This document shows positions 48,531-57,975 of a stretch of DNA of 64,000 bases, piece by piece. The translations under genes and the position numbers were made by a program. The DNA is from Vibrio lentus (GTDB taxonomy: Bacteria; Pseudomonadota; Gammaproteobacteria; Enterobacterales; Vibrionaceae). Location: assembly GCF_030409755.1 (NCBI RefSeq), contig NZ_JAUFQE010000001.1, positions 682,001 to 746,000 on the forward strand, given 5' to 3'. How positions within the stretch are numbered: position 1 is the stretch's first letter; each line of letters opens with the position of its first letter. The notes under the pieces are model-generated. The model worked only from the letters and a program-made list of their open reading frames with translations. It ran no database searches and was not told the origin of the DNA.

Positions 48531-49205
48531 ATGCTTAAGTTCTATTTTCACCAAACACCCAACCCAATGAAGATCGCTCTGTTTCTAGAAGAGACAGGCC
48601 TAGATTTTGAACTTGTTCCTGTTGATACCTTAAAGGGCGAGCAACACACGCCGGAATATCGTTTGATTAACCCAAACGGTAAAACACCAGCCATTGAAGA
48701 CGATGGACAGCGCGTGTTCGATTCTAACGCTATCCTTTTGTACCTATCAGAGAAGACTGGCGAGCTTGGGGGACAACCAGAAGACAGAGCTGAACTGCTC
48801 TCTTGGATGATGTTTATCGCGAGCGGTCTTGGTCCTTATTCAGGTCAATCGGTACACTTTCGCCATGCAGCGCCAGCAGGCCTAGATTACGCTGTGAACC
48901 GTTACCTACGTGAAGCACAACGTCATTACGAAGTGTTAGAAAAGCACATGGAAGGTCGTGAATTTATCGTCGGAAATGAGTACACCATTGTCGATGTCGC
49001 TGCATGGGGTTGGATTGATAAAGCGCCTGTCGTGCTTGGTGAAGAAGGCTTAGAACCTTACCCGAATTTGAAGCGTTGGTTTAACGCAATCAACACTCGC
49101 CCAGCTGCAATTCGCGCTCGCGAGATTGGTAAAGGCGTTGAATTTAAAACCGAACGTGATGAAGAAGCGAAACGAGCACTGTTTCCTTCGAATTATGCGA
49201 AGTAG
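48531..49205 (+). CDS. glutathione S-transferase
   Basis: A 224-residue soluble enzyme with an N-terminal thioredoxin-like domain (residues 1-~80, FYFHQTPNPMKIALFLEE, then NPNGKTPAIED and the DSNAILLYL glutathione-binding segment) and an all-helical C-terminal domain (~90-215). It is close to the YfcG/Ure2-like subgroup, which act as disulfide reductases with glutathione. AGGAG six or so bases upstream gives a clear start. A 16-base palindrome in its upstream region suggests inducible control by a TetR-type repressor. Confidence 0.92.
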   Translation: MLKFYFHQTPNPMKIALFLEETGLDFELVPVDTLKGEQHTPEYRLINPNGKTPAIEDDGQRVFDSNAILLYLSEKTGELGGQPEDRAELLSWMMFIASGLGPYSGQSVHFRHAAPAGLDYAVNRYLREAQRHYEVLEKHMEGREFIVGNEYTIVDVAAWGWIDKAPVVLGEEGLEPYPNLKRWFNAINTRPAAIRAREIGKGVEFKTERDEEAKRALFPSNYAK

Positions 49206-49218
49206 AGTCTGACAATGA

Positions 49219-49242
49219 GGCCCAATAGCAATTTCCTGGGCC
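49219..49242 (+). terminator. weak terminator after the GST gene
   Basis: GGCCCA pairs with TGGGCC around a 12-base loop. The following T-rich stretch is short, so it is weak. It marks the left edge of the accessory region. Confidence 0.5.
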
Positions 49243-49469
49243 GTTTACTTCACCTTGATTACTCCAAGATAACCGACCCACCCATCCTGACTCCATCACA
49301 CTAACCTGCGTATTGAATAAGTAACCTCAAATTCGTAAGTAACTGTTGCAAGTCATAAAATACAGATTTAGAGCTACTTGATATGAGATCATAATGATAT
49401 TCTATATGTCATAAAACATTTCATAGGCTTTTAAACGAGCCTTTAAGTCCATCTGAGCGTGGTTTGTAT

Positions 49470-49697
49470 ATGATGTGCACCAAGCACAATGAAACTAGAT
49501 TCATTGTCGATAAAGAAGTTCACCAAGCATTAAGCGGCCAGCACCTAGTAGATATGGACGGCCTACTTTCTCAAAATAATATCCAGCATTTACCTGGTAA
49601 AAAACTTGCGATCAAATTTAGTCGCTCAACTCCAACAGTCGAAAAAGGTGAGGTGAAAGTTATTGGTAGAGTTGCGTTTGTGATGGAGAAGAAGTGA
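49470..49697 (+). CDS. hypothetical small protein, first gene of the accessory operon
   Basis: A 75-residue protein starting MMCTKHNETRF, with a beta-like core (KKLAIKFSRS and KGEVKVIGRVAFVM) and no membrane helix. The start could be the ATG at 49470 or at 49473, and the ribosome site is weak. It overlaps the next gene's start by one base (TGATG), a sign of translational coupling. It is not recognised. As the first gene of the six-gene accessory operon it could be a regulator or a system subunit. Composition is more AT-rich than the flanking core genes. Confidence 0.6.
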   Translation: MMCTKHNETRFIVDKEVHQALSGQHLVDMDGLLSQNNIQHLPGKKLAIKFSRSTPTVEKGEVKVIGRVAFVMEKK

Positions 49698-50071
49698 TGG
49701 ATTCATTCAAATTAGTATTAGACCTAGCGCTTCTTGGTGACGCTACGAACCAAAGTTATACTGTTATAACTTTTGGACTCGCATCTGCACTTTTCGGTCT
49801 ACTTATTGTAATCCTTGATTTTTGCACGTCTAAATCTACTGAGAAGAATAGTTACCTAAAACTTTCATATACTGGTTTTAAAGGCATCGGCGTATTCTTG
49901 ATGTGGGGTATTGGCGCAGGAATTGCGGGTATGGTTGGTGCTGCTGCAGATATTTTTGAAATCAGTCGCACTGCTAGCGTATTTGTTGGTGCTGGTTGGC
50001 CTGTAGTACTGCCACGATTACTTGTCAAGAACTATCTTCAGAAAAAGTCCCTACGGAGTAAGTCATGTTAA
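49697..50071 (+). CDS. small membrane protein with three or four helices
   Basis: A 124-residue protein with hydrophobic helices at about residues 20-42, 58-75 and 85-105, the second and third rich in Gly and Ala (GIGVFLMWGIGAGIAGMVGA). The last ~15 residues are basic. GGAG lies eight bases before the ATG at 49697, and the gene overlaps the previous stop by one base and the next start by seven. It is not recognised. Gly-rich small membrane proteins in defence operons sometimes act as membrane-disrupting effectors, but that is an inference here. Confidence 0.75.
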   Translation: MDSFKLVLDLALLGDATNQSYTVITFGLASALFGLLIVILDFCTSKSTEKNSYLKLSYTGFKGIGVFLMWGIGAGIAGMVGAAADIFEISRTASVFVGAGWPVVLPRLLVKNYLQKKSLRSKSC

Positions 50072-50496
50072 ATTTTCTATTAGGTCGCTCAAGCTTTAGC
50101 AAGAAAGAGCAAGTTATCGAATCAATCCGTAGCTTCGAAAAGTTCAATAATAACGAAAATATTGAAGATGCAGATACACTGCTTCTTTTCAAAAGTGACA
50201 CTCAACAGTGTTGGTTAGTTTTCACCAACTTACGCATGTACTTTGTCCTCAATGACACAGAAAAATCATTATTAAAACCTATGTGGGCAAGAGACAAGGA
50301 CAAAATGGTCTTAAATGGTCGTATTAACTTACATCTGAAAGACGAACGTCACTCTAACGAAACGGGTAAACTCAACTTTGGAAATATGAACAACGGTATG
50401 CTCTACACTTATTCACTTTTCAATGGAACTAGCCCTGCAGGCATCATCCTCACCTTAGCAAACAAGCACTTTTTGTCTGAAGAACTCGGAGCTTAA
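50065..50496 (+). CDS. hypothetical protein with a possible bacterial PH-like fold
   Basis: A 143-residue soluble protein. The middle (~40-130) looks like alternating beta strands ending in a helix, with a CWLVFTNLRMYFVLND stretch that resembles the hydrophobic-TN-x-R-hydrophobic pattern of bacterial PH or GRAM-like domains. That match is a pattern impression only. ACGGAG lies six bases before the start. It is coupled to the small membrane protein upstream (7-base overlap) and to the large ATPase downstream (3-base gap), so it may tie the system to a membrane or to the neighbouring proteins. Confidence 0.7.
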   Translation: MLNFLLGRSSFSKKEQVIESIRSFEKFNNNENIEDADTLLLFKSDTQQCWLVFTNLRMYFVLNDTEKSLLKPMWARDKDKMVLNGRINLHLKDERHSNETGKLNFGNMNNGMLYTYSLFNGTSPAGIILTLANKHFLSEELGA

Positions 50497-50499
50497 ATC

Positions 50500-52950
50500 G
50501 TGATAGAGAAAAGAGACTTAAAAACCAAATCACTCACCTTCGACGTAGATGCTCAGCTCATTCGAGAACTAGGTGAAAGACTAGTTAGTAGAAACCATAT
50601 TGGTATTTCAGAAATAATAAAGAATGCTTACGATGCGGATAGCCCGAGTGTCGACGTATCTCTAGCCAACATCAATGACGATGATCTAGGTCAATCGGAG
50701 TTAATTATTTCAGACCATGGTTTAGGTATGAGTTTCGATACCGTGAAAAACCATTGGATGACCATTGGCACAAGTAACAAACGATTGAACCCCGTTAGCA
50801 AGCTCTACGGACGCCCTGTCACAGGTAATAAAGGCATTGGCCGCTTTGCCTGCCAGCGTTTGGCAGAGCACCTAGAACTAACAACATGCGCTAAGGTATC
50901 TGACGGTTATGAACATACAACGGTTCAATTTGACTGGGAGGATTTCAAGGCAGGAAAACGCCTGTCAAATGTCCATTGTAAATACCAAAGCTACCAATCA
51001 AGTGAAGGAACTGTAGGCACAACTTTAAAACTCAAACGGCTGCGTGAACGAGTTACTGAGCGTGACTTCAAAATGATCCTAAAGAGCATCACACTTATTT
51101 CAATCACCATTCCTGTTAAACGAGAACGTTTTGAAGAAGATCCTGGTTTTGAAGCTAGTATTCGTGCTCCTGAATTTAAAGAGCTCATTGGCAGCGCATC
51201 ATTTAAAGCTGATGAAAAGCTTTTGACCTCTGGTTGGGGAACTGTTAACGGTATAATCAATGAAAATGGTTCTATTTCATTCGAACTCGAGAGCAAAGAC
51301 TCAGAAAAACAAACTTATTCATACGATGGTGAACAGTTTATTCCACTTAGTGGGGTTTCTTTTACAATTCACATAGTCCCATTAAAAAGCAGGGACGGCA
51401 TCGAATACCGAAGGGATTCTACTCTTTTAACTCGTTCAGTATTAAAGGATGTCACTGAAATTCATGCCGGTATCAAACTTTACCTAAATGGATTTAGAGT
51501 TTATCCATATGGTGATGTAAACGAAGGTGATGACTGGCTACGCATTGCTCACGATATTTCGCGTCGCCGTGGTCCTAGTGACTTCCTCGATCTACAGGAT
51601 CTAGCTGGGAAGTTGGGCATTGAGAGTCCTAATCGCGCTATGCTTAATCACCCAGGTACACGATCACTCATCGGTGAAGTAACTATCCAAGGGAAGGCAG
51701 TTGAAGCATTGCAAGTAAAAATGGACCGTGAAGGTCTTGTTGAAAACGATAACTTTAAAAGCTTAAGAAAAGCAATACGAATATCACTAGATTGGGCAAC
51801 TATCAACTACGAAGCGTGGCTAATTCGTTCACGTAAAAAACGTCACGAATCTGTTGTCCAAGCTTTCGAAGAGTCTGTAGGGAACAAGTACGAAAGTACT
51901 GAGAGTAGAATAACCAAAGCGATTAATACTCTATGGTCTTCAGAAGCGGCCGTTGATAGCGAAATAGATGCAATTACGGAATGGGAATCAAGCGACCCTA
52001 ATAAAAACAATAAAAATCCAGTTTCAGAGTTTCAATCAACACCTGAAGCTAAAGTTCCGGTTCCACCAAACCCAGTTGAGCCTGAAGCTCCTTCTATAGA
52101 AAATATCATATCAAAGGAAAACGTTGAGCAAAAAAATACCGCCCAAGCATTTCTACTTTCTCAATATAAAGAACTCGAAGCTGAGTCTGAGCTGCTGCGA
52201 GCTGTTTCTGCCACTGCACCGTTACTTTTTGTATTTGCCCATGAAGTTAAAGGTATTGCACAGACATTAACTAGCCAATCGGCTCAACTCAAATTGATCG
52301 CAGATAAGATTGATAATCAAGACATAAAATTAGAGCTATTATCGATGGCACAAAGTGCCAGTGATTATCAAAAATCTTTTGATGATTTATTTGAACTATT
52401 TGAAATATTTTCTGATTCAACTGGTAAATCTAATAAAAAAATCACTTATCATAATTTGTTCAAGCGCATCGAAACAGGATTTAGTTTCTTCTTGAAACAA
52501 TACGATATCAAATTGGAATTTGAAAAGGTCAAGCCCTTTTTAGGTGTCCCAAAACTTAATCAGGCAGAAGCCTATTCCGTGCTCATCAACCTCATCTCTA
52601 ATAGCATAAAATCACTTATTGCAAGCGACTCAGAAGAACGTTTTATTCATGTTTCAGTAATAAGAGAGGATGAAGGGCTTCACTACATTACTGTAAAAGA
52701 TAACGGTATTGGGCTTAAAAAAGAGCATTGGGATAGAGTATTTGAAGCAAAAACTTATGACCCGGAAGGAAAATTATATAGTTCAGTTTCATCCAAAATA
52801 AGTGATGACAAAATTAGCAACCTTGGTAAGGGTTCTGGACTCGGCCTCAACATTGTTCAGAATATTCTTAGGAAGTACAAAGGAAATGCAAAATTTGTCG
52901 AACCATCGGCTCATTGGAATGCCGAAGTGCAGATAACAATTGGAAACTAA
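50500..52950 (+). CDS. fused MORC/Hsp90-like ATPase and histidine-kinase transmitter
   Basis: An 816-residue protein with two GHKL ATPase modules. The N-terminal one has E38-x3-N42 (ISEIIKNAYDADS), D72-x-G74-x-G76 (ISDHGLGMS) and GNKGIGRFA at 109-117, with a transducer-like region after it (~150-480), as in MORC and Hsp90 families. A linker (~490-560) is followed by a dimerisation region with an H-box (FAHEVKGIAQTL, His581) and a canonical kinase ATPase with N701, DNGIGL (734-739) and GKGSGLGL (776-783). It starts with GTG at 50500, eight bases after GGAG. The receiver gene downstream begins at its stop. It likely senses a trigger in its first module and passes phosphate from the second. Confidence 0.88.
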   Translation: MIEKRDLKTKSLTFDVDAQLIRELGERLVSRNHIGISEIIKNAYDADSPSVDVSLANINDDDLGQSELIISDHGLGMSFDTVKNHWMTIGTSNKRLNPVSKLYGRPVTGNKGIGRFACQRLAEHLELTTCAKVSDGYEHTTVQFDWEDFKAGKRLSNVHCKYQSYQSSEGTVGTTLKLKRLRERVTERDFKMILKSITLISITIPVKRERFEEDPGFEASIRAPEFKELIGSASFKADEKLLTSGWGTVNGIINENGSISFELESKDSEKQTYSYDGEQFIPLSGVSFTIHIVPLKSRDGIEYRRDSTLLTRSVLKDVTEIHAGIKLYLNGFRVYPYGDVNEGDDWLRIAHDISRRRGPSDFLDLQDLAGKLGIESPNRAMLNHPGTRSLIGEVTIQGKAVEALQVKMDREGLVENDNFKSLRKAIRISLDWATINYEAWLIRSRKKRHESVVQAFEESVGNKYESTESRITKAINTLWSSEAAVDSEIDAITEWESSDPNKNNKNPVSEFQSTPEAKVPVPPNPVEPEAPSIENIISKENVEQKNTAQAFLLSQYKELEAESELLRAVSATAPLLFVFAHEVKGIAQTLTSQSAQLKLIADKIDNQDIKLELLSMAQSASDYQKSFDDLFELFEIFSDSTGKSNKKITYHNLFKRIETGFSFFLKQYDIKLEFEKVKPFLGVPKLNQAEAYSVLINLISNSIKSLIASDSEERFIHVSVIREDEGLHYITVKDNGIGLKKEHWDRVFEAKTYDPEGKLYSSVSSKISDDKISNLGKGSGLGLNIVQNILRKYKGNAKFVEPSAHWNAEVQITIGN

Positions 52951-52951
52951 C

Positions 52952-53965
52952 ATGAAAATTCTAGTTATTGATGATAAGGCTAAAGAGACTGATCATCCAC
53001 GATCAAACCTTTTGAAGGTATTGGAAGAAAGAGAGGGCATTACTTATGATCTTATTATGCCCGATGCAACACAACTAAAAAGAAAGCTGGCAAAAAGTGA
53101 AACTGGTGAATACGATCTAATAATTGTTGACTACATGTTCGATAAACCTACGTCGCTATTTAAAACAGGAACATCACTGTATTCTGTTATTCGCTCGTAT
53201 ACAGAGAATACTCCTATTTACTTAATTTCAGTCAAGAGATCACCGACCAATCAAATTGGCGATTTCGAGTTATTTATCGGTAACAAGTTCCTTGAGAACC
53301 ACACCGCGTGTAAAGCCGATATCGAAAGCCATACTGCGCTAAAAATGTGCAGATCTGTTGAAGGTTTTTTGAGACTGATTCAATGCCCAGAAGACATCAA
53401 GGAAGATATTGAAATATTGATTAAACCAACACTATCAAAGTCAGATCTTGGTGAGGTTGTAAACGGCGATCACATTCCTCCGCGAGAGCTTAATAATAGC
53501 CTTAACCTTAGGTTATTCTCATGGTTGGCACGCTCCCTATTGAGAAAAGAAGGCCCTTTAGTCAGTAGTTCAGGCGCTGCTGCACTATTAGGAGTAAGCC
53601 TAGAATACTTCGAAAGAATTTCTGGTGAGTTTAACGATGCTTTATATAAAGGCATTTTCAATCAATCATTTGATAAGCGTTGGTGGAGCATATCACTAGA
53701 GGACAATATTTATACAAGAAATGACCCTGAAAAATATCTAGAAAACCGACCTTTTAAAGAAGCTGCGGCTAAATTACTGCATGCAAAAGAAGATGACTTA
53801 TCAAGTTGCGCTGTATGTGATCAACACTACCCTGATAGCTTAGGCATTGTTGCAGGAGAAGCACAACATGAACTTCACCCAGTACATGTTACATGCTCAT
53901 TGTTTGATGACACTCTGCCAAAAGAACCTTTTTTCAGAAATCCACGAATTATTGAGATAAGTTAG
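52952..53965 (+). CDS. receiver-domain protein with C-terminal zinc-knuckle-like motif
   Basis: A 337-residue protein. The N-terminus (1-~125) is a receiver-like domain: acidic pair D7-D8 (LVIDD), phospho-acceptor Asp60 in LIIVDYM, then a segment with a Ser and Lys (LISVKRS) that may fill the switch positions. The C-terminal part is not a standard output domain. It has a helical stretch (~195-230, SGAAALLGVSLEYFERI, HTH-like) and then C286-x2-C289 with H312 and C315, a possible zinc site. I start at the ATG at 52952 (GGA seven bases upstream), two bases after the kinase stop. It is the natural phosphate acceptor of the adjacent kinase. Confidence 0.82.
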   Translation: MKILVIDDKAKETDHPRSNLLKVLEEREGITYDLIMPDATQLKRKLAKSETGEYDLIIVDYMFDKPTSLFKTGTSLYSVIRSYTENTPIYLISVKRSPTNQIGDFELFIGNKFLENHTACKADIESHTALKMCRSVEGFLRLIQCPEDIKEDIEILIKPTLSKSDLGEVVNGDHIPPRELNNSLNLRLFSWLARSLLRKEGPLVSSSGAAALLGVSLEYFERISGEFNDALYKGIFNQSFDKRWWSISLEDNIYTRNDPEKYLENRPFKEAAAKLLHAKEDDLSSCAVCDQHYPDSLGIVAGEAQHELHPVHVTCSLFDDTLPKEPFFRNPRIIEIS

Positions 53966-53966
53966 T

Positions 53967-54725
53967 ATGTATATCATTGATCGTGACTTTACAAATAACT
54001 ATCTCAAAGTGTTAAACCAGTTTTCGAAACATATACTTGCGCAATCATCCGAATTGCCACGCTCAGAAGAAGATAATTTACATCAATTTTTTAGTAAACT
54101 ACAAAGCACCCTTAGTAGTGCTATTCGTAATAAAAAGGCATGGATCGGCAATATTCCTATCTCACCCAATATTATATTCCAATACAAAAACCCTAAGGGT
54201 GGAAATAGGAAATATTTCATATCAATCGGTGGTGTAATAAAAATTGAAAATAGGACTATTATAGAACAATGCTTGTGTGTAAATCTAATGATTAAACACA
54301 CAGAGTCATGTGATGATATTCCTGAGGAATGGAACAGCTACCCTCTTGAAAATGGCTATCATGTTCTACGCCGTTTTCATTTCGATTTTGACACAAACAA
54401 TGATGATAGAACTCGGCCGAAGTTTCACCTTCAATATGGTGGTAATTTTGAGCCTGAATACTTAAATATTGATGACGATGTTCACTATAAGTTATTCTCT
54501 CCAATTGATCACCCTCGCCTGCCTCAGCAACCATATGACATTATCATGTTATTAGATTATGTTCTAAGGGAGTTCGAACTAGGAGGCTTAAGTGTTATCA
54601 ATGATAGTGGCTGGAAAAAGCATATTATTGATTCTGAAAACATATGGCTCAAACCATATTATGACGCCATTTTAACAAGACTAACCAACACATCTAGATC
54701 AAACACTCTTCATCGCTTGGAATAA
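53967..54725 (+). CDS. hypothetical 252-residue protein, last gene of the accessory operon
   Basis: A soluble protein without signal or membrane segment. It starts two bases after the previous stop, so it belongs to the operon. The middle has a strand-rich region with an aromatic, acidic segment (RFHFDFDTNNDDR, then FHLQYGGNF) and a late PRLPQQPYDIIMLLDYVL helix, which look like conserved motifs, but I cannot name the family. Length and position suggest an effector or adaptor of the system. A strong terminator follows. Confidence 0.75.
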   Translation: MYIIDRDFTNNYLKVLNQFSKHILAQSSELPRSEEDNLHQFFSKLQSTLSSAIRNKKAWIGNIPISPNIIFQYKNPKGGNRKYFISIGGVIKIENRTIIEQCLCVNLMIKHTESCDDIPEEWNSYPLENGYHVLRRFHFDFDTNNDDRTRPKFHLQYGGNFEPEYLNIDDDVHYKLFSPIDHPRLPQQPYDIIMLLDYVLREFELGGLSVINDSGWKKHIIDSENIWLKPYYDAILTRLTNTSRSNTLHRLE

Positions 54726-54726
54726 T

Positions 54727-54759
54727 AAAAAAGGCTAACTTTCGTTAGCCTTTTTTATT
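54727..54759. terminator. bidirectional terminator between the accessory operon and the methyltransferase
   Basis: AAAAAAGGCTAAC pairs with GTTAGCCTTTTTT around a four-base loop, with T runs in both directions. Confidence 0.9.
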
Positions 54760-56437
54760 ATAAATGACTTTTTACACCTTTATAGCGCTCTCTTCGCAAA
54801 AAATAAGCCCCCTTTACCAACTGAATACACTGTTCTTTTGTTACGAGGTTGTTACTTATAAGAATATTATCAACGATAGTTGTAACCTCGTCCATTAAAT
54901 TGTTTTTAATATGCTTTTCTATTTCAGGTACAGCACGTTTAAGGTCACTTACACATTCATCTGTTAACAGGATTTCTATTTTTCTACCTGCACTTGGCTC
55001 GATTTTCAGCACACCAGAACTGTATGCTCTCCCTTCTAGTTCAGCGGAAAGTTGCGAATAACTAGAAAGTAGTGACATAGCAATAGCTAGCTTTTTATCT
55101 GCACTCATATTCTTATCACGAAAGAAGATTTTATGTATTGAGTTGGTACAATTAATTCTTCCTTGGTTGATCACCATTCTTGGGCCAAGATGGATCATAT
55201 AAGACATAAACGCGTCGGAGATTATATTGTCATCAGGAGCAAACCAATGAGGTCGCTTTTTAAATGTGCGATTGTCCTCTATTTCTTTAACTGGAACCTG
55301 TGACAAGTACTGACTTACAGGACTAGATGTGTCCTGCATTTGTTCCGGCGTTGCATGCACCAAGTAAGCCCGCTTATTGTTTCTTTGGATAGCTCTTTGC
55401 CTTGGAACAGAATGTTTCACTCCAATAAATGAAGGGAAACGCCCTACTACCGGCCTCAAGCATTCTTCTGGAAGGTTGTATTTATCTATTGTTTTTTTGT
55501 CTATGACAAAGTACTTATTGGCACCGGTAACCATACCTATTTTTATGTCTAAGTACTGGCTAAGTGGATGTGCGTATCTTTTAAAAGATAAAGATTCATA
55601 CACTTCCTTTACACATTGGGGCAGTAGGTCAAGCTTATACTTTCCGAAGTTAAAAGCAGTATTTGTAACATCTTCAGTCAGACTCAACGTTAACTCTTCT
55701 AATGTATCAACGTAATCGACAGAAACACCGCCATTGTTGATTTTAGCTGAGCTAAAACCATCAGCAATAAGAATAATTGATGTTTCTTTAGCCCCTTCGC
55801 TTCTAAAAAAGCGCTCTGCTAATTTAATAAGCTTTACGCTCTTGAAGTGCTTCTGATGGATATCAATGAGGTTCTTAGCATAATCAGCATGTAGCAAGCT
55901 ACTTGGTAAAACCCAAGCAACTCGACCACCTTCTTTAATAAATGACAGGCTATGCAACAGGAAAAATGCCCATAAGCTTGCATTACGCCCCATAGTTACG
56001 TCAGAAAAAGGAGATGCTTGCAAAATTTTGTCACAAGACTCACGCTGCTCTTTTGTCATATTGTGCATTGAAACATAAGGAGGATTGCCAAGCACAACAT
56101 CAAATTTGTTCGTCAAAAAATCTTCAGGTTGAACTGAAATAAAGTCACTTTTAATAAAGCGCTTTTTTGTATCAACAACGCGCCCAAATTTCTGACTCAA
56201 AATATCAAAAGCGTGTTTATCTATATCAACACCATAAAGCTGTTGATCTGGAGAGCCACAGTTTATGGCCTGCAATCGTTTGATACAGCTATCGAAAAAA
56301 CCACACCCTCCAAAACTAGGCTCTAAAATTGTTTCTTCTGGTCTTGTTATCGCCCAATCTACAAGAATTTGGCTTAGCTCGGGTGGTGTATAGTAAGCTC
56401 CAAGCTCTCTTTTCTTAGGCAATGAGTGCGGATTCAT
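54758..56437 (-). CDS. N6-adenine DNA methyltransferase (TaqI/Eco57I-like)
   Basis: A 559-residue class I SAM methyltransferase. Motifs in order: GAYYTP (13-18), the SAM-binding EPSFGGCGFF (39-48), YGVDID (motif II), and NPPY at 118-121, the catalytic motif of adenine N6-methylases. After residue ~290 comes a target-recognition-like region starting IGMVTGANKYFVI, as in M.TaqI relatives. No nuclease motif is visible, so this is a methyltransferase only, or the protecting half of a split system. It converges on the six-gene operon. AAAGG precedes the ATG. Its target sequence cannot be read from the protein. Confidence 0.9.
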   Translation of the reverse strand: MNPHSLPKKRELGAYYTPPELSQILVDWAITRPEETILEPSFGGCGFFDSCIKRLQAINCGSPDQQLYGVDIDKHAFDILSQKFGRVVDTKKRFIKSDFISVQPEDFLTNKFDVVLGNPPYVSMHNMTKEQRESCDKILQASPFSDVTMGRNASLWAFFLLHSLSFIKEGGRVAWVLPSSLLHADYAKNLIDIHQKHFKSVKLIKLAERFFRSEGAKETSIILIADGFSSAKINNGGVSVDYVDTLEELTLSLTEDVTNTAFNFGKYKLDLLPQCVKEVYESLSFKRYAHPLSQYLDIKIGMVTGANKYFVIDKKTIDKYNLPEECLRPVVGRFPSFIGVKHSVPRQRAIQRNNKRAYLVHATPEQMQDTSSPVSQYLSQVPVKEIEDNRTFKKRPHWFAPDDNIISDAFMSYMIHLGPRMVINQGRINCTNSIHKIFFRDKNMSADKKLAIAMSLLSSYSQLSAELEGRAYSSGVLKIEPSAGRKIEILLTDECVSDLKRAVPEIEKHIKNNLMDEVTTIVDNILISNNLVTKEQCIQLVKGAYFLRRERYKGVKSHL

Positions 56438-56648
56438 TTTTGTTTTTCCTTTACGAACTGGGCTATCCCAAATTCTAATGTTACGCTCATTTTACCTTAT
56501 ATCTTCAACAACTTGAACATATTCCCCATTAATAACTCGAGAACAAAATTAAAACAAAACAATAAAAAACAACAACTTAAAGCATCTGCATTTGAATAAA
56601 ATTTAAAAACAATAAATCATTACTCGATACACAGCCCCATTTACCACA

Positions 56649-56852
56649 TCAAAACAACCCAAACACATTGTTTTTCCCATCTTGTTCAAGGCCTTTAATC
56701 TGATGGTGCTTGGGCTCTCCACCAAACAATAAAATATATAACTTCCGGTCTTGATACGTCCCCACTACATAGTGGTCTTTTTGTATCACGACTCGATAAT
56801 TTCGGCTTCCCATCGGGAAGCCAGTACTTAATAACATCCATGTAAAATCCAA
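56649..56852 (-). pseudogene. possible remnant frame downstream of guaC
   Basis: The frame (up to 67 residues, from a TTG) encodes a basic C-terminal-looking segment, for example GSRNYRVVIQKDHYVVGTYQ, that stays open upstream to the guaC terminator. There is no ribosome site and no ATG at a sensible place. It could be the tail of a gene lost when the region was remodelled. I do not recognise the parent. It could also be chance. Confidence 0.3.
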
Positions 56853-56872
56853 ATTGTTCAGACGTAAATCCC

Positions 56873-56902
56873 AAAAAAAAGAGCCGCTAAAAAGCGGCTC
56901 TT
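56873..56902 (-). terminator. intrinsic terminator of guaC
   Basis: AAGAGCCGC pairs with GCGGCTCTT, followed on the minus strand by eight T residues. Confidence 0.88.
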
Positions 56903-56931
56903 GATTTTCAAACTATTCGAATTCGTTCAGA

Positions 56932-57975
56932 TTACTCTTTACCGAATACGTTGTTCTCTTGCTCTTGTACACGGATGAAAGTAGTACGCTTAGTTAGCTC
57001 TTTAAGCTTTGCTGCGCCTACGTAGGTACAAGTTGAACGTACACCACCAAGGATGTCAGAAATTGTGTTGTGAACTGAACCACGGTATGGAAGTAAAACA
57101 GTTTTACCTTCCGCAGCACGGTACTTAGCAACACCACCTGAGTGCTTGTCCATAGCCGACTGTGAAGACATGCCGTAGAACTTCATGTATTGCTTACCGT
57201 CTTGCTCTACAACTTCACCGCCTGACTCAGAGTGACCTGCTAGCATGCCGCCTAGCATTACGAAGTCAGCACCGCCGCCGAACGCTTTAGATACGTCACC
57301 CGCACATGAACAGCCACCGTCACCGATGATCATACCGCCAAGGCCGTGTGCCGCGTCGCCACACTCGATGATTGCAGAAAGTTGAGGGTAACCTACGCCT
57401 GTTTTAACACGTGTAGTACAAACAGAACCAGGGCCGATACCAACCTTAACAATGTCTGCGCCAGCTAGGATTAGCTCTTCAACCATGTCACCCGTTACAA
57501 CGTTACCCGCAGAGATAACTTTAGTCGGGAATTCAGCACGTACTTTCTGTACGAACTCAACAAGGTGCTCTGAGTAGCCGTTAGCGATATCAATACAGAT
57601 AAATACGAACTCTTCGCTAAGCGCCATGATCTTCTTAACTTTCTCGAACTCAGCTTCAGACGTACCTGTTGATACAAAAACGTTGTTCAGTGTTTTCTTG
57701 TCTGCTGTTTTAGCAAACTCAGCCCACTGCTCTACTGTGTAGTGCTTGTGTACTGCAGTCATAACACCGTGCTCTGCTAGAGCAGCTGCCATTTCAAAGC
57801 TTGCTACCGAATCCATGTTAGCTGCAATTACTGGAGTACCAGACCATTGACGACCGCTATGCTTGAATGTAAAATCGCGGGTTAATTCAACTTGAGAACG
57901 GCTTTTAAGGGTAGAACGCTTCGGACGGAAGAGTACATCTTTGAAACCTAACTTAAGTTCTTGTTCGATACGCAT
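56932..57975 (-). CDS. guaC: GMP reductase
   Basis: A 347-residue TIM-barrel enzyme that reduces GMP to IMP with NADPH. Key features: [20 protein letters not shown] with the catalytic Cys near residue 186, then [23 protein letters not shown] and the YRGSVHNT loop. There are no CBS domains, which separates it from IMP dehydrogenase. AAGGAAA is the ribosome site. The leader is unusual, with two hairpins sharing the same apical sequence. In V. cholerae, I recall, the vchM methyltransferase gene is next to this gene, so the position may be a hotspot for methyltransferases. Confidence 0.96.

Follow-up and report, generated by a model that had tools for sequence, protein, structure and literature searches.

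We analysed a window of 64,000 nucleotides from Vibrio lentus (contig NZ_JAUFQE010000001.1, positions 682,001 to 746,000 of the forward strand), in which a cassette of tightly packed genes lies beside guaC. Six plus-strand open reading frames (ORFs; 49464-49697, 49694-50071, 50065-50496, 50500-52950, 52952-53965 and 53967-54725) follow one another closely, the first two junctions overlapping by 4 and 7 bases and the other three being gaps of 3, 1 and 1 bases; the start of the fifth was taken as the ATG at 52952, with a TTG upstream at 52940. A methyltransferase gene on the minus strand (54758-56437) converges on them, 32 bases from the last plus-strand gene, and adjoins guaC. The G+C content is 0.347-0.411 in the 1-kb rows covering 50001-57000, compared to mostly 0.40-0.50 elsewhere in the window. 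The close packing, the convergent methyltransferase and the AT-richness relative to the flanks had been pointed out in the initial annotation, and the ORF coordinates and the 1-kb rows confirm them. Its picture of a six-gene system next to a lone methyltransferase has to be revised. The core of the module is four genes, called HK, RR, X and MT here; MT belongs to it. The set of HK, RR and X with a methyltransferase recurs in other genomes, and the first three ORFs are a phage scrap (o1) and two clade-specific extras (o2 and o3). The core features are as follows.

49198..56872, variable island that separates a GST-like gene from guaC (limits from blastn alignments with L159, L155 and L156)
50500..52950, plus strand, HK, sensor kinase of 816 amino acids, a paraMORC-type GHKL ATPase fused to a DHp and CA histidine kinase
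codon 52240-52242, plus strand, presumed phosphoacceptor H581 of HK (conservation)
52952..53965, plus strand, RR, relay protein with a receiver-like domain and a conserved C-terminal region (Response_reg E = 0.008, below the Pfam cut-off)
codon 53129-53131, plus strand, presumed phosphoacceptor D60 of RR (conservation)
53967..54725, plus strand, X, unnamed protein of 252 amino acids, predicted effector, no Pfam family
54758..56437, minus strand, MT, N6-adenine DNA methyltransferase of the Eco57I type with an NPPY motif

The two GHKL modules of HK are recognised as HATPase_c_3 (1.9e-19) at the N end and HATPase_c (1.5e-17) at the C end, and in this respect the ATPase-kinase fusion proposed earlier was borne out; the receiver protein proposed with it can only be called receiver-like at the Response_reg value listed above. 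H581 and the adjacent E582 are invariant in all 51 rows of the HK alignment, as are the GHKL motif residues E38, N42, D72, G74, G76, G112 and G114. Compared with known structures, the HK profile resembles HK853 (2c2a, 4.5e-14) over the kinase core and MutL (4.7e-5) at the N end. HK carries hallmarks of paraMORC proteins, namely a GHKL ATPase at the N terminus whose ATP motifs are intact and a restriction-modification (R-M) context, together with those of histidine kinases, a phosphoacceptor histidine in a DHp-like helix and a CA domain. The RR homologues keep D60 in 69 of 69 sequences, D8 in 68 and D7 in 58, which means that an acidic pair and a phosphoacceptor aspartate are present. MT matches N6_Mtase (2.2e-17), Eco57I (2.3e-16) and M_Eco57I_C (3.6e-13), and PADLOC assigned to it methyltransferase-type models of 54 families, the best being MTase_II (6e-84). 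In X, H154 and R184 are invariant in 52 rows and H138, D140, P151, P183 and P189 are found in at least 90%; strands 131-142 and 153-158 of its structural model bear the two histidines.

The HK-RR-X-MT set recurs in bacteria and archaea more often than expected by chance. With an HK profile of 51 sequences, at least 571 relatives were detected in the named genome collection, and the best-scoring 80 loci were kept. By record titles, with the phylum names supplied by us, these come from Pseudomonadota, Bacteroidota, Actinomycetota, Chloroflexota, Planctomycetota and archaea, and two of them were already known from our survey of Vibrio (L072, the V. anguillarum locus of G011, and L073, the V. penaeicida locus of G116). 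The RR family took in 69 of 78 candidates and the X family 57 of 69, each including the genes of the window, L053, L054 and L055, and X was thereby placed in 53 of the 80 loci. Stricter phmmer sets held 65 RR genes and 48 X genes. A modification gene lies within six genes of HK in 70 of the 80 loci: an N6 methyltransferase in 58, N6 and C5 enzymes in 2, a C5 enzyme in 5 and SspBCD in 5; the remaining 10 have none, and 5 of these reach the end of a contig. We built the modification-gene sets with phmmer, extending them from seed sequences of which some were drawn from the same loci, and the methyltransferases were confirmed by Pfam or PADLOC in L098 and L103 and by a C5 domain in L143, the rest being assigned by similarity. 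The N6 gene stands at position -1 from HK in 20 of 63 cases; in 35 it is at +3, mostly as the gene that follows X directly. As a background, none of the 618 genes in 53 guaC regions of Vibrio matched the same 63 N6 sequences.

The linkage can also be approached from X. A search with X alone found it in 6 of 226 Vibrio genomes, which are the six cassette genomes, and at the class level in 3 of 369 genomes, namely its own and two others, both with HK, RR, X and MT side by side. All eight distinct genomes found in this X-first search contain HK, RR and MT; one of the class-level genomes (G263) is not independent of the 80 loci and has the same gene set as L121. The profile used for X had 52 rows, the window and 51 of the 53 loci (L140 and L147 omitted), at E <= 1e-5. 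Among the 48 X genes of the strict set, 40 lie in loci with an N6 enzyme, 5 in loci with Ssp genes and 3 in loci without a modification gene. Across 42 loci, sequence identities were correlated at 0.88 for HK-RR, 0.80 for HK-X and 0.80 for RR-X, compared to 0.31-0.43 for MT against the others; in 300 permutations the highest correlation was 0.33 among the HK, RR and X pairs and 0.15 for pairs with MT. Shared species history inflates such correlations, and the telling point is the contrast of X and RR with MT. That the four genes are chance neighbours in a genomic island without any joint function is hardly credible in view of this co-variation, the X-first linkage and the repeated joint occurrence in bacteria and archaea, even if prophage islands do gather unrelated cargo and o1 and the separable o2-o3 pair are examples of it.

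Within Vibrio, 120 of 227 genomes had an HK match at E <= 0.001, often to the kinase part alone. We covered the surroundings of HK in the 16 genomes that scored best apart from its own, down to E = 2.6e-14. In all 16, a methyltransferase-type gene lies beside HK or RR (in G011 on a second contig) and a receiver-like gene, mostly recognised by eye, adjoins HK. The methyltransferase was assigned by similarity to the MT of the window in 5 genomes, by Pfam in 2 (L057 and L060) and by motif or by eye in 9 (L058, L059 and L061-L067).

The exchange of partners is seen most clearly at the guaC site. In L054 (genome G019) the site, the flanks and the CI scrap are the same as in the window and MT is 95% identical; the stretch 49707-54767 of the window has no counterpart there. 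In its place L054 has an inverted X-RR-HK block, with gene order and direction both reversed, together with a gene for 165 amino acids, and the aligned identities to the window are 25% for HK, 18% for RR and 18% for X. HK-RR-X therefore moves as a unit. Since the HK of the window is 75% identical to that of G130 and the MT only 58%, the two cases together show that MT and HK-RR-X have been re-paired. An orphan MT, 71% identical, is found at guaC in G165 (L056:8969-10654) without HK, RR or X, and is possibly a remnant after loss of the restriction arm.

The modification partner may also be of a different chemistry. In five Bacteroidota loci (L096, L102, L119, L128 and L147), in which the methyltransferase sets have no match, the neighbours are SspB, SspC and SspD. 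PADLOC identified SspB (2.8e-109), SspC (E = 0), SspD (2.3e-90) and a PbeC-like gene (2.4e-29) in L119, and PbeA (E = 0) for one gene of L102; the Ssp genes of L096, L102, L128 and L147 were assigned by similarity to L119. As SspBCD stands in place of MT, the HK-RR-X arm pairs with two unrelated DNA marks. HK-RR-X lies directly behind SspBCD in these loci (L119:4793-14091, L102:2682-14356, L096, L128 and L147), which are candidates for a phosphorothioate-linked phosphorelay defence.

The gene slot after RR is variable in other branches of the family. It is HNH-like in L057 (0.0025) and L058 (0.00067), both under the Pfam cut-off, and encodes a metallo-beta-lactamase protein in L113 (1.8e-16) and L116 (4.9e-12); Pfam was silent on the slot genes of L114, L127, L132, L143 and L145. 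We infer that X is an effector, mainly because its position is equivalent to that of the HNH-like and metallo-beta-lactamase genes, with its conserved residues as a further ground. In actinobacterial loci (L114, L124, L127 and L134), proteins of 208-232 amino acids with a PIN-like acidic motif replace X.

From this gene set and its linkage, mobility, conserved residues and exchange of modification partners, we think it somewhat probable that the cassette is an R-M-like defence system in which a phosphorelay arm, HK-RR-X, replaces the usual endonuclease. MT, to judge from its domains, would methylate a motif in the host DNA as a mark of self, and HK might monitor DNA or the modification complex. 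Unmodified or invading DNA would then cause HK to autophosphorylate at H581 and to pass the phosphoryl group to D60 of RR, as the conservation of both residues suggests. RR would switch on X, which probably cleaves DNA or nucleotides by means of its H-x-D...H...R residues. A P2-like prophage, now decayed, probably delivered the whole cassette to guaC and left behind a CI scrap and small fragments close to either end, a step supported by homology.

Several points weigh against this proposal. Pfam recognised a receiver domain in the RR of only one of eight relatives tested (L061), and not in those of L053, L054, L055, L057, L060, L062 and L119; the predicted structure of RR is weak, and the conserved lysine typical of receivers is not among the invariant columns of the RR alignment (A2). 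RR also has a helix-turn-helix-like stretch at about residues 204-230 by sequence resemblance, where the model has helices at 206-212 and 217-230, and it could be a transcription factor. A domain scan recognised no nuclease domain in any cassette protein of the window, and the X model (mean predicted local distance difference test score 78.8) has no significant match in the PDB and no recognised fold. The 80 loci, being the best-scoring ones, are no random draw, and some of the search seeds came from them. Five of them have room on both sides and no modification gene (L082, L100, L126, L130 and L146; L130 has a candidate by motif only), and the three strict-set X loci without one are L126, L146 and L148, one of which is at a contig end.

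A broader form of the idea is that HK-RR-X is a portable restriction arm independent of the chemistry of the mark, in which a true His-Asp phosphorelay reads the modification and fires an exchangeable effector. We hold this only tentatively and consider it rather doubtful as a whole. If it were true, the modification partner would determine the sequence specificity, and one arm could therefore pair with different marks, adenine methylation or phosphorothioation, and employ X, an HNH protein or a metallo-beta-lactamase protein as the effector. Restriction is usually the work of enzymes that recognise and cut DNA themselves. The association of HK-RR-X with methyltransferases or phosphorothioation genes raises the possibility that recognition of self and non-self DNA may run through a two-component phosphorelay with an exchangeable effector slot, in which X would represent an effector family so far without annotation. 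At guaC, the natural swap, with the same MT accompanied by very different HK, RR and X, makes the seat of specificity directly testable.

The helix-turn-helix-like stretch of RR leads to another explanation, in which HK and RR are a cytosolic two-component system that regulates transcription of MT and X, MT being an orphan methyltransferase and the module performing no restriction itself. Control of R-M genes has been suggested for a sister family by Bellieny-Rabelo et al. (PMC8011034). We consider a purely regulatory role unlikely, because HK-RR-X stays constant while the modification chemistry varies between MT and SspBCD, the orientation relative to MT is inverted between the window and L054, and the slot after RR may hold an HNH-like or metallo-beta-lactamase gene instead. 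It is also conceivable that HK-RR-X guards the modification machinery, watching for its inhibition or for unmarked host DNA, and that X kills or arrests the cell in an abortive infection. The pairing of HK-RR-X with different MT lineages and with SspBCD would agree with sensing of the state of the machinery rather than of one DNA site, and an orphan MT does survive at guaC in G165. However, direct restriction explains the pairings equally well and a lone surviving MT is also expected from ordinary R-M decay, and we regard such a guard as quite improbable.

Identity of the window to three related Vibrio genomes (L159, L155 and L156) breaks off at 49197-49206 and returns at 56870-56873 in blastn alignments, and the 7.7 kb stretch from the GST-like gene to guaC is therefore variable. 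The cassette is absent from the guaC site of these three genomes, none of which is bare: L159 has about 1.3 kb of other DNA there, and L155 and L156 have several other genes. The remaining features of the island are as follows.

49464..49697, plus strand, o1, fragment from the C terminus of a P2-like CI repressor (Phage_CI_C 4.7e-9)
49324..49392, minus strand, weak trace of a Cox gene of P2-like type, in divergent orientation to o1 (tblastn 4.6e-4; 23 amino acids, 48%)
49694..50071, plus strand, o2, Gly-rich membrane-like protein of 125 amino acids, accessory and clade-specific, no Pfam family over the cut-off
50065..50496, plus strand, o3, protein of 143 amino acids, accessory, travels with o2, nothing over the cut-off in domain scans
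56652..56789, minus strand, scrap of 46 amino acids, 80% identical to part of an L057 gene (tblastn 5e-23)

The first ORF, o1, can be aligned with residues 135-207 of the complete 208-amino-acid CI in L055, in which Pfam finds the full CI domains; this alignment and the Phage_CI_C match make o1 a prophage scrap and no member of the system. The L057 counterpart of the 46-amino-acid scrap adjoins the integrase of an element inserted at guaC; a homology search of the island found no scrap of an integrase itself. With its CI scrap, its weak Cox remnant and its fragment of a gene from the integrase side, the island is most likely what remains of a P2-like prophage after decay, with the cargo still in place. 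In L055 and L060, P2-like elements are present at guaC with the cassette between integrase and CI; the CI of L055 was identified by Pfam, and the Cox, CII, integrase and replication genes of both elements by eye. Other relatives are carried on Tn7-like elements (L051 and L066) or lie beside transposition genes (L053), again as identified by eye.

guaC was found in 58 of 61 sampled Vibrio genomes, and 53 of these 58 regions were compared; L180 ends 0.4 kb beyond guaC, which leaves 52 readable for neighbours. In 8 of the 52 (L166, L170, L174, L184, L186, L187, L196 and L202), the few genes nearest to guaC include an integrase, whole or in part, that is related to the integrases of L055 and L060. 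The 3' side of guaC (window 56438-57975 and the fetched guaC regions) is an insertion hotspot in Vibrio, and three different kinds of MT-HK-RR cassette occupy it in L055, L057 and L060. A gene for 164-165 amino acids beside the CI gene of guaC elements (L054:6258-6755 and L055:13242-13736) has weak matches to SduA_C (0.011) or ABC-3C MC4 (0.051) and is possibly an extra defence gene. Apart from one case with no cassette, the o2-o3 pair was seen only alongside cassettes closely related to that of the window. Homologues of o2 were found in L051/L072, L053/L073 and L069, and o3 is present in 5 of 227 Vibrio genomes, its own included. In L069:6918-7803 (G122) the pair has none of the four core genes near it within the stretch read, and o2-o3 may be a small separate module.

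These comparisons support the earlier suggestion of a defence island in part: the cassette is variable, linked to modification genes and carried on P2-like and Tn7-like elements in relatives, and its genes occur together in unrelated hosts. Within the searches made, including the guaC neighbourhoods across Vibrio, the genes are not a fixed core locus and match no known non-defence system. A PADLOC scan, which had been proposed as a check, gave no system match for the cassette: X had no match, RR a single weak and partial one (PDC-M60C, 0.026) and HK partial matches to REase_II (3.3e-11 and 7.4e-9) confined to the GHKL part. The statement that the gene set differs from any system that can be named was too strong, as paraMORC-type HK/RR pairs beside R-M genes are in print (PMC8011034).

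Among known systems, Detocs contains histidine kinase and receiver proteins proposed to act in phage defence, and its domain make-up differs from that of the cassette; it is not known to have a DNA-modification partner. The name Detocs did not appear in the PADLOC scan, and whether the 2023 copy used includes a Detocs model was unchecked. Type II R-M systems share with the cassette a DNA methyltransferase. Apart from this enzyme, no core gene of BREX or MADS was matched among the cassette genes; MT alone gives matches of the mad2/PglX type, under the NCBIfam cut-offs. The GHKL restriction enzymes of the BbrUII/HgiDII type (NF050001) have a related N-terminus, aligning to HK residues 13-192 at 7.9e-20; however, the score is 70.9 bits against a cut-off of 550 bits, and the C-terminal half of HK is a histidine kinase. 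Of the phosphorothioate systems SspBCD and PbeABCD, SspBCD adjoins HK-RR-X in 5 of the 80 relatives, and PADLOC finds a PbeA-like gene in L102 and a PbeC-like gene in L119, whereas the cassette of the window has a methyltransferase and no Ssp gene. The MORC and paraMORC proteins of R-M systems (Iyer, Abhiman and Aravind 2008, PMC2292703) share the N-terminal MutL-like GHKL ATPase, the R-M neighbourhood and the mobility; the paraMORCs described in that paper combine GHKL and S5 domains, sometimes with a nuclease or TIR domain, whereas the cassette has a full DHp and CA core and, as a second protein, RR. The record of the P2-like coliphage PhiR44_1 of Escherichia (PV340563.1; L070:8980-12028) contains, between portal and replication genes, a gene with the label ParaMORC3 that converges with a Dcm gene.

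The closest relatives in print are the HEF_HK/Response_reg_2 pairs described in 2021 (Bellieny-Rabelo et al., PMC8011034). They resemble the cassette in having an N-terminal HATPase_c_3 and a C-terminal kinase ATPase, an adjacent receiver and a neighbouring methyltransferase, with Vsr and HNH genes in the vicinity, and the cassette shares their arrangement of a kinase gene next to a receiver gene in an R-M neighbourhood. A paraMORC-like kinase with a receiver beside R-M genes is thus already published. In the open-licence PMC literature searched (PMC8011034, PMC2292703, PMC12137116, PMC12839542, PMC7824862 and PMC7159879 included), HK-RR-X was nowhere described together with an Eco57I-type methyltransferase or SspBCD, and the terms Eco57I and phosphorothio- are absent from the main text of PMC8011034. 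Nor did X or the natural swap turn up in these papers. HK and RR lie outside the HEF_HK and Response_reg_2 models: HK has no match to HEF_HK (PF19191) and RR none to Response_reg_2 (PF19192) at E <= 1, and their own genome has no member of either at E <= 0.001. PMC8011034 stresses C5 methylases, whereas the cassette family mostly has an N6 methylase and X, and sometimes SspBCD. Four of the 17 cassette genomes examined (G130, G116, G019 and G173) have neighbouring PF19191 and PF19192 members elsewhere in the genome, and the two families therefore coexist and differ.

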